Assembly (NCBI GenBank): GCA_905339345.1
Contig: CAJPFF010000125.1
Coordinates: 1-39,570 of the forward strand
Direction of reading: 5' to 3'
From: Geobacteraceae bacterium
GTDB taxonomy: Bacteria; Desulfobacterota; Desulfuromonadia; Geobacterales; Geobacteraceae
DNA: 39,570 nt
Within the stretch, counting starts at the first letter, position 1, and the number at the start of each line of letters is the position of its first letter. The position numbers and the translations under genes are program-made. Under the pieces are notes generated by a model. The model saw nothing but the letters and a program-made list of their open reading frames with translations, was not told where the DNA came from and did no database searches. Positions 3,215-8,995 of the stretch are shown piece after piece.

Positions 3215-5857
3215 CTACAATCGGGTCAGTCCCTTCGTGACAATCTTGAGTTCGTCCTCACGTGTTGACACCTCGCCATTCAGACGGGCAGAAAGAACCG
3301 TATCCAGTATCTCGCGATAGCGTGGACCTGGCGGAAGGCCCACAGCCTTTAGATCATCTCCTGTGACAGAAGAGGTAACACCCCGGAGTTGAGTCACATA
3401 GAGGGAAATGAACTTCCGTACGTCTTCGCAACGGGTTTTGGCCATGATGTAGAGCAGAACCTCGGGCGAAAGCCCCCGGAGCCAGAAGTAGACGTCGCTG
3501 CGCCTGACCGGTTCCCCCTTTGCGACTTTGCGCTCCATCACCTCAAGCATCTGCTCGCCATGGACCCGCATGTCGATGAGCTTCTCCCGGTAATGCTCGG
3601 AGATGGATAGCCGCGAGCAGGTTTCCCAGAACGCATTGTCGGGCAGGGCTGACGTCAGGGCAAGGAAGTAGACCACCCAGGTTTCCACACGATCCCCTTG
3701 GTAGAGGAGATCAAACCAGGTAATTACCTTTTTGACCTCGTCCAACACCTTGAGATTCTCCGGTTGGAGCGCCAAGTCAGGATGAATGAAACGCAAAAGC
3801 CCCAACCCTTCCATCCGCAGTATTGCCCGAACCGGCTCCCTTTCACGGAGAATCAGGACCAATTCGTTGAGTAGCCGTTTTCCGCCGAGCTTATCGAGGA
3901 ATCCCATCTTTACGGCATTTTTGATGAGATTTTCCGTATGCCGCGCAATCTGGAAGCCGAGCCGCTGCTCGAAGCGGATTGCCCGAAAGACCCGTGTCGG
4001 GTCTTCAACGAACGAGAGGTTGTGAAGAACCCGGACAGCCTTGTCGCGGAGATCCCGGTACGCGCCGAAGAAATCGACAAGAAGCCCGAAGTCGGCTGTG
4101 TTGAGCTTTATGGCGAGGGTGTTGATAGTGAAGTCGCGACGGTAAAGGTCCATCTTGAGCGAAGAACGCTCCACCGTCGGAAGGGCGCCAGGGGTTTCGT
4201 AATATTCCAGACGGGTGCTTGCCACGTCGATCTTCGTTCCGTCGGAAAAAACGATGACCGCGGTGCCGAATTTATCGTGGCTCTTGACTCTGCAATCGTG
4301 ACCGGCAGCAAAGGTTTCGGCGAAGAGGATGCCGTCTCCCTCAACGGTGACGTCGATGTCCTCGTTCTTGCCACCCAGCAGGAGATCACGAGCAAAACCA
4401 CCGATGGCGTAGATCGGGAGTTCCAGCTTGTCCCCTACCCTTCCCAGCTCACGGAGAGTTTCCACCATCCGCCGCGGAAGATTCTTGTTCATGAGGTGAA
4501 CCACCTCGCGGCGGCGCACCGGCGGTGTCTCACGGCCAAGATCGTAGACCGCCTCGGCACTGCGCTGCATGCCGGCATACATGTAACGCAAAAGATCGGT
4601 CCGCGTTATGACCCCAATGAGTTTCTCGCCGGCGAAGACCGGCACAAGCCGCCGGTGCTGCCCGACGATATAGTCCTGGATAACGTTGAGCGGTGTATCG
4701 GGCTCCGCCCGCATATACTCCGTATGCATATATTCGCTGACCGGCAGGGAACCGAGCCCGTGATACAGGGCCTTCTCTACGATCCGCAGGGAAATGATCC
4801 CGACCATACGTCCATCGTCGATTACCGGCATGGCGTTCACGTTGTAGCGGGTGAGGAGTTCGCGGGCCTCGGCGATTGTGGTCTCCGCCGACAACGTCTT
4901 CACCGGCGAAGACATGAGGTCGCTCGCCGTGCGTTTCGGATTGACCCACTGGGGAAGCAGCTGCTGGAACCTCCCCAAAACCTGAATGACGGTTTGATCA
5001 CGTACCGTGGCTGAAGCTGCAGTTGCATGCCCACCACCACCGAATTCACGCAGGATCGCCCCCACATCCACCTCAGGGATGCGGCTCCTCGCCACGACAT
5101 AGACACGCTCCGCCATGCCAACCACGATGAAAAGCGCCTCCAAGTTTTCCATGTCGCGCATCATGTGGGCCAATACCGCGATATCTCCCACATAGTAATC
5201 AAGGGAAGCGTGGGCGAGCGATATATCAACTCCGTTCACACTAACGGTATGCAACGACTGGAGGAGGTCGTTCAACAGCGACACCTGCTCGGCGGTCAAC
5301 TCCTGTGAAACAAATTCGGCGACAATATTGAGGTTTGCCCCATGGGACAAAAGCCAGGAGGCAGCTGCGTAATCATCAACGCTCGTCGAGGGGAAGGTAA
5401 GGTTTCCGGTATCCTCGTAGATGCCGAGCATCATGAGGGTAGCCTCGACAGGCGTCACCTCGATCCCCTTCTCCATGAGAATCTTGGCCAGAATCGCAGT
5501 GGATGAGCCGCACTCACGAATCTCGCCTCCGCTGTGGCTTATATCGCCCGATGAGCCGGGATGGTGGTCGTAGATATGGACCACAACGCCAGGTCGTTTC
5601 GCCGCCTCGGCCAAACGGCCAATGCGCGACGAGTGACGGCAGTCCACAAGAATCAGCCGTGATATCCGAGAGAGGTCGATGTCTTTCAGGCGGGTCAAGG
5701 CCGGCATGTAACCGGTAGTCTTGAGGAAGAAATCCCTGATGCTCTTCTCTTGAGATCCGGGAAAGACCATGAGGGCATCGGGATAGAGCTTCTTCGCTGC
5801 TACCATGGCGCCAAGGCAGTCGAAATCGGCATTCACGTGGGTGGTGATGACGTCCAT
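3215..5857 (-). CDS. DHH phosphoesterase - CBS pair - tRNA nucleotidyltransferase/poly(A) polymerase fusion
   Basis: An 880-aa three-part protein. Residues 1-310 form a DHH/DHHA1 phosphoesterase: HVNADFD (7-13), the DHH triad at 97-99, EDTG at 148-151 and the GGGGH RNA-binding motif at 273-277. Residues 311-430 form two CBS domains, which usually bind adenosine nucleotides. Residues 455-880 are a class II nucleotidyltransferase head and neck: GGFARD (486-491), the catalytic DID at 500-502, D544, RRDFTIN (573-579) and EDPTR (618-622). All key residues are intact. The likely role is addition of A or CCA to RNA 3' ends, with the DHH part trimming RNA or short oligonucleotides. Geobacter is reported to have separate C-adding, A-adding and poly(A) polymerase enzymes, so the exact activity is open. 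The start has no clear Shine-Dalgarno sequence. Confidence 0.9.
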   Translation of the reverse strand: MDVITTHVNADFDCLGAMVAAKKLYPDALMVFPGSQEKSIRDFFLKTTGYMPALTRLKDIDLSRISRLILVDCRHSSRIGRLAEAAKRPGVVVHIYDHHPGSSGDISHSGGEIRECGSSTAILAKILMEKGIEVTPVEATLMMLGIYEDTGNLTFPSTSVDDYAAASWLLSHGANLNIVAEFVSQELTAEQVSLLNDLLQSLHTVSVNGVDISLAHASLDYYVGDIAVLAHMMRDMENLEALFIVVGMAERVYVVARSRIPEVDVGAILREFGGGGHATAASATVRDQTVIQVLGRFQQLLPQWVNPKRTASDLMSSPVKTLSAETTIAEARELLTRYNVNAMPVIDDGRMVGIISLRIVEKALYHGLGSLPVSEYMHTEYMRAEPDTPLNVIQDYIVGQHRRLVPVFAGEKLIGVITRTDLLRYMYAGMQRSAEAVYDLGRETPPVRRREVVHLMNKNLPRRMVETLRELGRVGDKLELPIYAIGGFARDLLLGGKNEDIDVTVEGDGILFAETFAAGHDCRVKSHDKFGTAVIVFSDGTKIDVASTRLEYYETPGALPTVERSSLKMDLYRRDFTINTLAIKLNTADFGLLVDFFGAYRDLRDKAVRVLHNLSFVEDPTRVFRAIRFEQRLGFQIARHTENLIKNAVKMGFLDKLGGKRLLNELVLILREREPVRAILRMEGLGLLRFIHPDLALQPENLKVLDEVKKVITWFDLLYQGDRVETWVVYFLALTSALPDNAFWETCSRLSISEHYREKLIDMRVHGEQMLEVMERKVAKGEPVRRSDVYFWLRGLSPEVLLYIMAKTRCEDVRKFISLYVTQLRGVTSSVTGDDLKAVGLPPGPRYREILDTVLSARLNGEVSTREDELKIVTKGLTRL

Positions 5858-5899: not shown

Positions 5900-6766
5900 T
5901 CAGCGGGATGCCACCAGCGGCTTGAGGGGCGCGGGCTGATACACGGGATTTTCTCCGATCACCTCCACCATCGGGCCGCTGTCGAGTAACTCCAGATCAC
6001 CGGTGTCTTCGCCATACTCGGCTTCTCCAACGGCCCAGTCGTAGAGTTTTTTGGAATCTTGGAGAACCGGCTTCCCAGGGATGCCATACATGCGGTTCTG
6101 CATCTGCTCATCAAAGAGCCCGACGCAGCCGTGGGATGCGGGTTTGCCGGGGAGATCCCGCGCATGGATCCAGTAGGCCACGTTGTCGGAGCCGATATGG
6201 AAACGCATGGCGAAATCCATGGGATACTGGGCCGACTGGTCGTCGGTCTGATAGAGGGAAGAGGTGTGGGTGCGGTGGCGGGCATCGACCCGGAAAAGAC
6301 CGGTGGGGGTTTCGTATCCCTTTTTGCCGGTGGCCGCAGGCATGGAAAATTTAAGTTGCCCATTTTCGTAGGCACCAATCCACTGTTCGGTCAGGCTGAT
6401 GAGTATATACCGGTCATAGCGCCTAGCCGGCTCATACTCCAGGGGAAGTGGGGTGTAGCGACGGGCTGCCTCCATGTCGGTGGGGACCTTGATGGTCATG
6501 CCTGGGTACGTGTGACGGCGATCCAATCTATTGAAACGGGCCACCGTGGTCCAGTCGTTGCCGAAAAGAGTTTCGAGAGTCTCGTGGGGTCTGATGAAGT
6601 GGGGTTCCCAGTCAATCTGCCGGTGGCTCGGGTAGTCAATCCGGGAGAGATCCTCCTTGGCTCCGTCCACGGGAGAGGCTGCCGGGTCGGCAGTGGATCC
6701 GGGCCTGTGAATGACTATTGCGCCGAAGATGAGGAGTGCGATGACGTATGCCAGCTTGCGGATCAT
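5900..6766 (-). CDS. L,D-transpeptidase (YkuD/ErfK family) with LysM-like domain
   Basis: A 288-aa periplasmic peptidoglycan enzyme. An N-terminal membrane anchor or signal (residues 4-19) is followed by a LysM-like segment (about 58-96, ending in YPGMTIKVPT) and a YkuD domain (about 118-240). The YkuD motif SHGCVGLFD at 211-219 carries the catalytic Cys214 and His212. The family makes 3-3 crosslinks or attaches lipoproteins such as Lpp to peptidoglycan. The start at 6766 is preferred because the in-frame ATG at 6811 lies inside the upstream gene's terminator, while AGGA precedes 6766. It lies 42 bases before the DHH fusion gene on the same strand and may be co-transcribed with it. Confidence 0.9.
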   Translation of the reverse strand: MIRKLAYVIALLIFGAIVIHRPGSTADPAASPVDGAKEDLSRIDYPSHRQIDWEPHFIRPHETLETLFGNDWTTVARFNRLDRRHTYPGMTIKVPTDMEAARRYTPLPLEYEPARRYDRYILISLTEQWIGAYENGQLKFSMPAATGKKGYETPTGLFRVDARHRTHTSSLYQTDDQSAQYPMDFAMRFHIGSDNVAYWIHARDLPGKPASHGCVGLFDEQMQNRMYGIPGKPVLQDSKKLYDWAVGEAEYGEDTGDLELLDSGPMVEVIGENPVYQPAPLKPLVASR

Positions 6767-6784
6767 TGGGTACCAGTCCTGCCG

Positions 6785-6812
6785 AAAAAAGGAATGGGGC
6801 CGAGGCCCCATT
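6785..6812 (-). terminator. Terminator of the B12/acyl-CoA operon
   Basis: Minus-strand hairpin with perfect 9-bp arms (6804-6812 with 6793-6801, AATGGGGCC/GGCCCCATT) followed by CCTTTTTT. It lies about 40 bases after the meaB stop codon and just before the L,D-transpeptidase start. Confidence 0.85.
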
Positions 6813-6852
6813 ATTTGTTAGCGATATAACGTAGCATTTTTCAACGGTACGG

Positions 6853-7815
6853 TCAAGAGTTGGACATCCGGTGCCCCGCAAACCGCTCGGTTAAGATCAG
6901 TTCTACGGCGCTGTAGGGGTCGGTCCGGCGGGCCGTCATCTCCTCGACGATCTCACGGAACCGGCCGTTTACCTGGATGTGGCCGAAGACCTCGGCGAAA
7001 AGCCGCTCCTTAAGCAGATCCATAAACTGCCGCACACTGCGCTCTTCCCTGATCCTCTCAAGGGCGCCCGACTCGATGAGGTGACGGCGGTGGGTCTCAA
7101 CCTCCTCCACCATCTCAGTGATACCACGGTTACGGCTTGCTTCGGTGAGGAGTACCTTCGGCTGCCAATCGCCCGGCTTGGTCTGCTTCATCTCCAGCAT
7201 GGCGGCAAGCTCCCGGGCAGTCCGGTCAGCCCCTTCCCGGTCAGCCTTGTTCACCACGAAGAGGTCGCCGATCTCAAGTACCCCCGCCTTGATGGCCTGA
7301 ATGTCGTCTCCAAGCCCCGGCACCGAAATAACCACGGTCGTATGGGCCATCCGGACGATATCGATCTCGTCCTGCCCTACCCCGACCGTTTCGATGATAA
7401 CCACCTCCATACCCATGGCGTCCATGACGTTCACCACATCGCCGGTGGAGCGGGAAAGCCCCCCCATGTGGCCGCGGGTGGCCAAGCTCCGGATAAAGAC
7501 GCCGGGGTCCTCTGCATGACGGTTCATCCTGATCCGGTCACCAAGGATTGCGCCACCGGTGAAGGGACTCGTGGGGTCAATGGCAACAACCCCCACCCTG
7601 CTTCTCCGTTGCCGGTAGACGGCGATAAGCTGATCCACCAACGTCGATTTCCCCGCCCCTGGCGGTCCGGTTATACCAAGGATAAACGCCCGGCCCGTGT
7701 GTGGATACAGAAGCTTCATCTCCGCTGCGGCGCTCCGAAAACCGTCGTCCAAATCACGCATGAGGCGGGCCGCGGCACGCAGGTCACCGGCGAGTATCCT
7801 ATGAGCCAAAGACAT
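6853..7815 (-). CDS. meaB: MeaB/ArgK-type G-protein chaperone of a B12-dependent mutase
   Basis: P-loop GTPase that gates adenosylcobalamin loading and protects acyl-CoA mutases of the methylmalonyl-CoA mutase type. The 320-aa protein has Walker A GPPGAGKST (residues 50-58), the VAIDPTSPFTGGAILGDRIRM block diagnostic of MeaB, ETVGVGQ and the base-recognition motif NKAD. Family members were once annotated as LAO/AO transport ATPases. AAGGAA lies 8 bases before the ATG. The 5' end overlaps the atypical crotonase gene by 17 bases. It is the last gene of the operon, with a strong terminator behind it. Its partner mutase large subunit is not in the window. Confidence 0.95.
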   Translation of the reverse strand: MSLAHRILAGDLRAAARLMRDLDDGFRSAAAEMKLLYPHTGRAFILGITGPPGAGKSTLVDQLIAVYRQRRSRVGVVAIDPTSPFTGGAILGDRIRMNRHAEDPGVFIRSLATRGHMGGLSRSTGDVVNVMDAMGMEVVIIETVGVGQDEIDIVRMAHTTVVISVPGLGDDIQAIKAGVLEIGDLFVVNKADREGADRTARELAAMLEMKQTKPGDWQPKVLLTEASRNRGITEMVEEVETHRRHLIESGALERIREERSVRQFMDLLKERLFAEVFGHIQVNGRFREIVEEMTARRTDPYSAVELILTERFAGHRMSNS

Positions 7816-8578
7816 TCGCTGTTCCTTCCAGAAATCCAGTCATCCGTTCCCTCTCGGGAGAAGTGGCAAAGAGATACGCGAAGGAGGCCGCCTCCAGGGC
7901 ACAGCCTGTTTTCAGGTCACAGTCCTCAGAAGCATTGATCGCCTTCTTTGCCATGGCAAGAGCCGCCGGCGAGGCCGTGGCGGTTCGCTCTGCAAAAGCC
8001 ACAACCCGCTCCCAGAACTCATCGGCCGGGTAAACACGGTCAACAAGCCCCATCCGCAACGCATCAGCGGCGCCGTAAGGCTCAGAGGTCATGAAGATCT
8101 CCCGGGCGAAATTTTTCCCCACGAGGCGCGGTAGCTTCTGCGTACCGCAAAAACCGGTTATGATCCCCAGCTTGGCGCCGGGGTGGGCAATGACGAGCGC
8201 ATCGCTTGCGATCCTCAGGTCACAGGCCAGAGACAGGTCGCATCCCCCCCCCATGGTGATGCCGTTGAGGGCACCGATGATCGGTTTGGGACACTCCTCC
8301 ATGGCCGTGAAGAGTGACTGTCCCAACTCGGCAAAGGAAAAACCGTCGGCTGGGCCGAACTCCACCATCTGGTAGATATCGGCACCGACGGCGAAGGATT
8401 CGCCAGGATAACCAGTGATGACGATACACACAACGTCGGGATGCCGCGACAACTCGGCCACCGCCCGCTTCAACTCTTTCAGCATGGTAATGGTAAGTTT
8501 GTTGAAGCGATGACCCGCACCCATCAGGATAAAACCGACGCGGTTCTTGACCTCAATACGAAGTTTCTTGTAGGGCAT
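7799..8578 (-). CDS. Crotonase-superfamily protein lacking both catalytic glutamates
   Basis: A 259-aa enoyl-CoA hydratase/isomerase-fold protein. The CoA-binding and oxyanion-hole segments SFAVGADI (61-68) and GGGCDL (110-115) are present. However, the two general acid/base glutamates of classical hydratases are replaced: the first is Asp114 (GGGCD rather than GGGCE) and the second is Gly134 (HPGAKLG rather than PExxLG). It probably does not catalyse ordinary crotonyl-CoA hydration; isomerase, decarboxylase or hydrolase activity is possible. A TTG 9 bases upstream (8587) is an alternative start; neither start has a strong ribosome-binding site. It follows the B12-binding subunit by about 12 bases and overlaps meaB. 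Confidence 0.88.
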   Translation of the reverse strand: MPYKKLRIEVKNRVGFILMGAGHRFNKLTITMLKELKRAVAELSRHPDVVCIVITGYPGESFAVGADIYQMVEFGPADGFSFAELGQSLFTAMEECPKPIIGALNGITMGGGCDLSLACDLRIASDALVIAHPGAKLGIITGFCGTQKLPRLVGKNFAREIFMTSEPYGAADALRMGLVDRVYPADEFWERVVAFAERTATASPAALAMAKKAINASEDCDLKTGCALEAASFAYLFATSPERERMTGFLEGTANVFGS

Positions 8579-8590
8579 AACGCTCAACCG

Positions 8591-8995
8591 CTACGCCCGC
8601 GGCGTGACGTTCTCCCGAACCCACTGCACGATGTGCTCCGTGGAGGTCCCCGGAGTAAAGACCTCACTGACGCCCGCACCCTTCAGCCCGGGGATGTCGT
8701 CGTCGGGAATGACACCGCCGCCAAAAACAACGATGTCGTCGGCTCCCTTCTCCTTGAGAAGCTGGCAGACCCGCGGCAGGAGCGCGTTGTGGGCACCCGA
8801 GAGTATCGACAGCCCGACAGCATCCACGTCCTCCTGAATGGCTGCGGAAACGATCTGCTCCGGCGTCTGGTGGAGCCCCGTGTAAATCACCTCGAAACCG
8901 GAATCGCGGAATGCCCGGGCAATGATCTTGGCTCCCCGGTCGTGACCGTCAAGCCCTGGTTTACCCACGAGTATACGCAGCGTTCTTTCTGACAT
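8591..8995 (-). CDS. Stand-alone B12-binding small subunit of an acyl-CoA mutase
   Basis: A 134-aa protein consisting of the cobalamin-binding domain found at the C-terminus of methylmalonyl-CoA mutase. The base-off/His-on motif DxHxxG is present as DGHDRG (residues 16-21, His18 as lower axial ligand), followed by [10 protein letters not shown], the SILSGAH loop and [10 protein letters not shown]. The separate-subunit form is known from archaeal methylmalonyl-CoA mutase and from isobutyryl-CoA and 2-hydroxyisobutyryl-CoA mutases, so the substrate cannot be fixed from this subunit. AAGGAGAG lies just upstream of the ATG. Flanking cobO and meaB supply cofactor and chaperone. The catalytic large subunit is not encoded here. 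Confidence 0.93.

Follow-up and report, generated by a model that had tools for sequence, protein, structure and literature searches.

The window, a stretch of 39,570 nucleotides from a Geobacteraceae bacterium (contig CAJPFF010000125.1), carries on its minus strand an open reading frame that runs from position 5857 to position 3215 and encodes 880 amino acids from an ATG; frame 1 of the plus strand contains several stops across 3215–5857. The features of the gene are listed below, with residues numbered along the 880-residue protein.

3215..5857, minus strand: whole gene, 880 aa; NF041569 over residues 1–877; DHH/DHHA1 and CBS pair in the N-terminal half
5420..5851, minus strand: DHH domain, residues 3–146 (Pfam PF01368, 8.2e-11)
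5420..5851, minus strand: DHH motifs NADFD (9–13), D72 and DHH (97–99), with D149 directly after the domain
4946..5212, minus strand: DHHA1, residues 216–304 (Pfam PF02272, 2.1e-08), with R257-S258 and GGGGH (273–277)
4769..4927, minus strand: CBS1, residues 311–363 (Pfam PF00571, best CBS stretch), with S356 and the Asp absent at 359
4574..4744, minus strand: CBS2, approximately residues 372–428 (second Pfam CBS stretch, limits set by eye), with T418-R-T-D421
4517..4573, minus strand: linker between CBS pair and transferase, residues 429–447, predicted disordered (pLDDT < 50)
4031..4414, minus strand: class II nucleotidyltransferase head, residues 482–609 (Pfam PF01743), with catalytic D500, D502 and D544
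4139..4225, minus strand: flexible-loop segment, residues 545–573, full length; needed for A addition according to excerpts of PMC3925840 and PMC7014341
3992..4006, minus strand: EDPTR nucleotide-template motif, residues 618–622
3770..3958, minus strand: PolyA_pol_RNAbd, residues 634–696 (Pfam PF12627, 2.4e-07)

Every Pfam domain of the protein (DHH, DHHA1, both CBS domains, the PolyA_pol head and PolyA_pol_RNAbd) scored above its own curated cut-off, and the transferase half contains the motifs GG..RD, D500/D502/D544, RRDF and EDPTR. The NCBIfam model NF041569, “A-adding tRNA nucleotidyltransferase”, matched residues 1–877 of 880 with 1801.4 bits against a cut-off of 1440; its model length is likewise 880, and the present protein shows nothing notably different from it. 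A match of a curated full-length model over this span at 1801 bits excludes chance. A preliminary description of this DNA had stated that DHH/DHHA1, a CBS pair and a class II nucleotidyltransferase are all intact in one 880-residue chain, which both Pfam and NF041569 bear out, with CBS1 lacking its Asp. The curated pcnB model gave 65.3 bits on the protein, under its cut-off of 305.65, and 418.5 bits on a separate pcnB-like gene of the same genome.

The AlphaFold2 model of the full-length protein had a mean pLDDT of 85.3 and a pTM of 0.58, and left the mutual placement of the two halves unfixed. Across 54 sequences, mean pairwise identity was 0.661 in the transferase head, 0.595 in the neck and 0.378 in the C-terminal part, 0.559 in DHH and 0.541 in DHHA1, and 0.485 and 0.443 in the two CBS domains; the linker region (433–479) gave 0.302, the lowest value among nine regions.

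The NF041569 family was present near full length in 54 of 58 genomes comprising this organism and its relatives. The others held a fragment at a contig end (G005), a gene in three pieces (G028), or short weak matches only (G022 and G044). In a phylum sample of 247 genomes, made up of our genome and others at ≥ 90% completeness, 210 had a match below 1e-130 and 37 had none at that level, as counted by hand from the table; coordinates were seen for part of the 210 matches, at least four of which are pieces (G077, G136, G153 and G159). One of the 37, G115, has a DHH piece (L208) that ends where the sequence stretch ends, and its fusion may be cut by the contig end. A scan of named genomes returned at least 570 confirmed stretches, where one gene can count twice. 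Each of the 80 of these that were retained covers at least residues 1–845; most of the 80 come from records labelled “Deltaproteobacteria”, two are labelled Nitrospiria/Nitrospirae and one Chloroflexi. The protein is a member of an already named, known family and is typical of its bacterial group. Excerpts of PMC12709177 mention DHH-DHHA1 within tRNA nucleotidyltransferases, and excerpts of PMC9757072 describe a CCA-adding cluster among DHH-DHHA1 sequences, in Bacilli; in the available portions of PMC7288161 and PMC3307487 we found nothing on the present protein.

Two irregular copies were seen among the relatives. The three reading-frame pieces in G028 (L063, G028:C8) could come from a disrupted gene or from errors in the assembly, and G029 has, besides a full copy, a second partial one (L062, residues 1–494) that stops at the contig end (G029:C68 end).

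Transferase half and CC-adding partner

The flexible loop is missing from the CC-adding enzymes of bacteria and retained in the A- and CCA-adding ones (excerpts of PMC7014341 and PMC3925840). With loop length taken as the number of residues between the third carboxylate and the RD of RRDF, 48 of the 49 full fusions had a loop of 29 residues; in the remaining one (L031) the head was not parsed. The loop comprised 30 residues in all nine CCA-type enzymes from genomes without the fusion, which were hand-chosen; 30 loci had been returned across the 37 genomes that lack a match below 1e-130. D500, D502, D544, R574, D575, E618, D619 and R622 were invariant in 54/54 fusions. The first template residue was Glu in every fusion (54/54), whereas the partner enzymes had D, N, H, A or K there, the same pattern that is given for A- versus CC-adding enzymes in excerpts of PMC11784652. 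In the alignment, D619 and R622 correspond to residues 149 and 152 of the Aquifex A-adding enzyme, its ATP-selecting pair (PMC3925840, excerpt).

The nearest solved transferases, by both sequence and fold, were the Thermotoga maritima CCA-adding enzyme (Z 29.7, rmsd 3.2, 409 aligned residues) and the Aquifex A-adding enzyme (Z 28.6, rmsd 2.4, 372 aligned residues). The back half is 36–37% identical to the T. maritima enzyme (3h37, 3h38 and 5hc9) over about 410 aligned residues, and the solved T. maritima chain (441 residues) matches the transferase half only; the native enzyme also carries Nrn and CBS domains (PMC8208693, excerpt), as does the present protein. By description it adds the full CCA, unlike what the name of the A-adding family states. 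The Aquifex enzyme is A-adding (PMC3925840, excerpt), shares 34% identity over 372 aligned residues and has the ATP-selecting Asp/Arg in common with the present protein; its solved chains match the transferase half alone. The loop and the E/DDxxR template are present here but are common to CCA-adding enzymes too. Because the T. maritima enzyme has the same architecture yet is called CCA-adding, architecture and loop cannot separate A-adding from CCA-adding enzymes, and A-only activity of this very protein is our inference.

According to excerpts of PMC8208693, Geobacter sulfurreducens has a split CC/A system plus a poly(A) polymerase. Partner enzymes of relatives were picked, as weaker and shorter PolyA_pol matches, in 26 of the 58 genomes (L066–L068 were read separately and are counted), and their loops measured 14–17 residues in 26/26 genomes; four more distant partner enzymes fell in the same range. 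A genome of the same genus (G001) carries both the fusion and a loop-deleted partner (L064). No loop-deleted partner was found in our genome, which is 70.7% complete, with the Pfam head domain and the same-genus enzyme as queries. These queries returned only the present gene and the pcnB-like gene; the preliminary description had proposed a count of the nucleotidyltransferases in this genome. At 70.7% completeness this absence is weak evidence, and a CC-adding partner is probably present in this organism.

DHH/DHHA1 half and CBS pair

The front half contains DHH motifs I–IV and the DHHA1 GGGH of NrnA type. D11, D13, D72, D97, H98, H99, D149 and GGGH were unchanged in 52/52 aligned sequences (49 full ones, including our own, and the three fragments L061–L063; G035 was left out). 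Four loci outside the script pattern (L006, L041, L050 and L057) were read apart; their DHH catalytic residues are also intact, with Ser for N9 in L041 and HGGGH for GGGGH in L050. The preliminary description had named a domain lost throughout the relatives as an outcome adverse to its reading; this was not seen, the DHH residues being intact in the 52 sequences and in the four further loci. In a wider set of 54 sequences they were invariant except for D149, which was Glu once. Invariant catalytic residues and a mean pairwise identity of 0.54–0.56 indicate that the front half is under strong constraint, and for the same reason “accessory” may undersell it; the T. maritima enzyme is described as not needing its accessory domains for function (PMC8208693, excerpt).

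The best fold matches of the front half included TM1595 with pApA (Z 29.7, rmsd 2.5, 294 aligned residues), Rv2837c, DhhP, Bacteroides fragilis Nrn, NrnA and the GdpP catalytic domain; substrate assignment here rests on structures at 17–25% identity. The NrnA, TM1595 and Rv2837c phosphodiesterases share fold and catalytic motifs with the front half but are stand-alone proteins, whereas the latter is fused to a CBS pair and a transferase. The curated NrnA model NF053633 gave 51.4 bits on the front half, under its cut-off of 350; the front half may work like NrnA, though it is not filed as NrnA. In excerpts of PMC9757072, Bacillus subtilis NrnA cuts 2–4-mers from the 5′ end and leaves 6–15-mers alone, although earlier work that the paper cites disagrees about polarity and length. 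The preferred substrates of a Deinococcus relative are short oligonucleotides and c-di-AMP (PMC11229311, excerpt). By analogy, the substrate of the DHH half is most likely very short linear oligonucleotides or pApA.

The preliminary description had placed a trimming domain beside the adding domain and had suggested RNA 3′-end repair. We set aside a tRNA-trimming role for the front half because its nearest folds (TM1595, Rv2837c, DhhP, Nrn and NrnA) are nanoRNases and dinucleotide phosphodiesterases and because NrnA acts 5′–3′ on 2–4-mers and not on 6–15-mers, which makes trimming of a tRNA 3′ end unlikely. RNA 3′-end repair survives in a narrower sense, the family being named for terminal A addition to tRNA, without its trimming part. 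The front half is not the sole DHH/DHHA1 unit of this genome, since RecJ (L089) and two further proteins (L090 and L091) are present; the latter two match NrnA or pyrophosphatase models under those models’ cut-offs.

The T-x-x-D motif of CBS domains binds ribose. It is complete only in CBS2 (T418, D421), where the Asp is kept in 53 of 54 sequences; in CBS1, S356 is present and the Asp position is taken by I, V, T, M or L. The pair would thus hold at most one canonical adenosine-nucleotide site, as far as its motifs tell. Modelled alone, the CBS pair reached a mean pLDDT of 88.6, and the model resembled, to much the same degree, pairs whose structures contain SAM/MTA, AMP/ADP/ATP, Ap4A or c-di-AMP (Z ~16–18). 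AcuB was among the fold matches, at Z 17–18 and tied with many others, and a profile of the pair scored highest against MJ1225. On the models, a nucleotide-like ligand is plausible. CBS-containing family II pyrophosphatases likewise combine DHH and a CBS pair in one chain and are adenylate-regulated, but they have DHHA2 where the present protein has DHHA1 and catalyze a different reaction. Energy control through the CBS pair, which the preliminary description had suggested, is plausible here. In some distant relatives the TRTD of CBS2 is replaced, by SDRD (L138), GLTD (L139), AIGD (L144 and L149) or SAAE (L145), changes that may alter ligand binding.

A diadenylate cyclase (DAC) domain is encoded in our genome. 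Across the 247 genomes, however, DAC was found in 193 of 210 with a fusion match versus 33 of 37 without (missing in 17 and 4, respectively; Fisher p 0.53; one of these 21 misses, G286, was assigned by exclusion). The idea that the fusion tracks diadenylate cyclase was therefore rejected, and a dedicated c-di-AMP role lacks co-occurrence support. This comparison is blind to a general pApA or nanoRNA role.

Relatives without the DHH domain

Within the phylum, five families contain A-type enzymes that have no DHH domain: L207 (G065) and L209 (G101) in f14, L210 in f45, L202 in f91 (a 306-residue frame), L215 in f30, and L212–L214 in f65. The label “A-type” for these eight rests on family match and loop, the latter being 28–29 residues in 8/8. 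L212 (G267), L213 (G229) and L214 (G188) retain about 155–177 residues ahead of the head motif, in L213 with a weak CBS trace (20.8 bits, below the cut-off of 24), and possibly represent a half-way stage of domain loss. L210 (G106) is a bare A-type enzyme with neither DHH nor CBS, and G182, of the same family as G106, matches the full NF041569 family at 3.6e-245.

A loop-deleted enzyme accompanies the DHH-less A-type enzyme in G106 (L226, 15 residues), G267 (L232, 17 residues) and G289 (L222, about 15 by eye); G106 and G289 are rated 100% complete. In L227 and L228, the second nucleotidyltransferases of G065 and G101, the corresponding stretch aligns at 15 residues, with inserts and an Asn in the third-carboxylate column, and these sequences may have decayed or been aligned wrongly.

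In L212 and L215 the gene comes after a recombinase-like gene, and in L212 protease- and TrpS-like genes lie next, as near several full-length fusions (names given by eye from N-termini). This resemblance of neighbours suggests that the front half was lost in place in L212 and L215. The window itself has other neighbours. Upstream of the gene, at 5900–8995 on the minus strand, lie matches to a YkuD L,D-transpeptidase, MeaB, an enoyl-CoA hydratase and the methylmalonyl-CoA mutase C-terminal part, unlike the recombinase-, protease-, TrpS- and ScpA-like genes (by eye) beside the fusions of several relatives.

Readings of the fused protein

We favor, with a probability of about 0.85, the reading that the protein is the A-adding enzyme of a split CCA system of the Geobacter and Aquifex kind, to which an accessory DHH/DHHA1 and CBS half is tethered. 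A separate loop-deleted CC-adding enzyme would put C74 and C75 on the tRNA, after which the C-terminal half of the 880-residue protein would add A76, with D619 and R622 selecting ATP through their side chains and the A step permitted by the intact flexible loop. The N-terminal half would be flexibly tethered and accessory, with a phosphodiesterase of DHH/DHHA1 type, akin to NrnA and TM1595, that most likely cuts very short linear oligonucleotides or pApA, next to the CBS pair. It probably does not trim tRNA and is probably dispensable for A addition.

The transferase could instead be a complete CCA-adding enzyme, as in T. maritima, in an organism without a CC partner. The loop is present, the top-scoring solved relative is the T. 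maritima enzyme, and the searches of our genome turned up no nucleotidyltransferase beyond this one and a PcnB-like poly(A) polymerase; yet the completeness of that genome is 70.7%, a loop-deleted partner is present in the same-genus G001 and in all 26 relatives read, and the curated family is named A-adding, so that we regard this reading as very unlikely. Still less probable is a dual function in which one protein would trim RNA 3′ ends and rebuild them, the CBS pair shifting the balance between the two according to AMP/ATP. Such a scheme would draw on modules that are all intact and conserved, with the CBS2 Asp in 53/54 sequences, and on a CBS pair that folds like AMP/ADP/ATP-bound pairs such as AcuB. 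However, the closest folds of the front half are dinucleotide phosphodiesterases and nanoRNases, B. subtilis NrnA works 5′–3′ on 2–4-mers and not on 6–15-mers (PMC9757072, excerpt; earlier reports differ), the tether joining the halves is predicted to be disordered, and A-type enzymes without DHH exist.

For the front half alone, a dedicated c-di-AMP phosphodiesterase serving second-messenger turnover would fit fold matches that include TM1595 with pApA, Rv2837c and the GdpP catalytic domain, the DAC domain in our genome, and the Deinococcus relative with activity on both short oligonucleotides and c-di-AMP (PMC11229311, excerpt). With no association between DAC and the fusion over 247 genomes (p 0.53), we consider this role unlikely. 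A little more doubtful still is a front half that is an active dinucleotide or short-adenylate phosphodiesterase, with the adjoining CBS pair sensing either its AMP product or the cellular AMP/ATP ratio and controlling A76 addition accordingly; if this were true, tRNA maturation would slow under abnormal energy or RNA turnover.

Under the favored reading, an A-adding enzyme with a tethered accessory half, the enzyme itself is already known and the remaining question is the role of that half; we found no functional test of the DHH/CBS part in the open-licence literature searched. A phosphodiesterase and a nucleotide-sensing pair are kept intact on a tRNA enzyme in many bacteria and dispensed with in some, which is a puzzle for which the DHH-less forms (L202, L207, L209, L210 and L212–L215) offer natural controls. 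As a separate observation in our genome, the stand-alone DHH/DHHA1 protein L091 (G000:C188:6285-6545) lies about 10 kb from the DAC domain (G000:C188:16644-17000).
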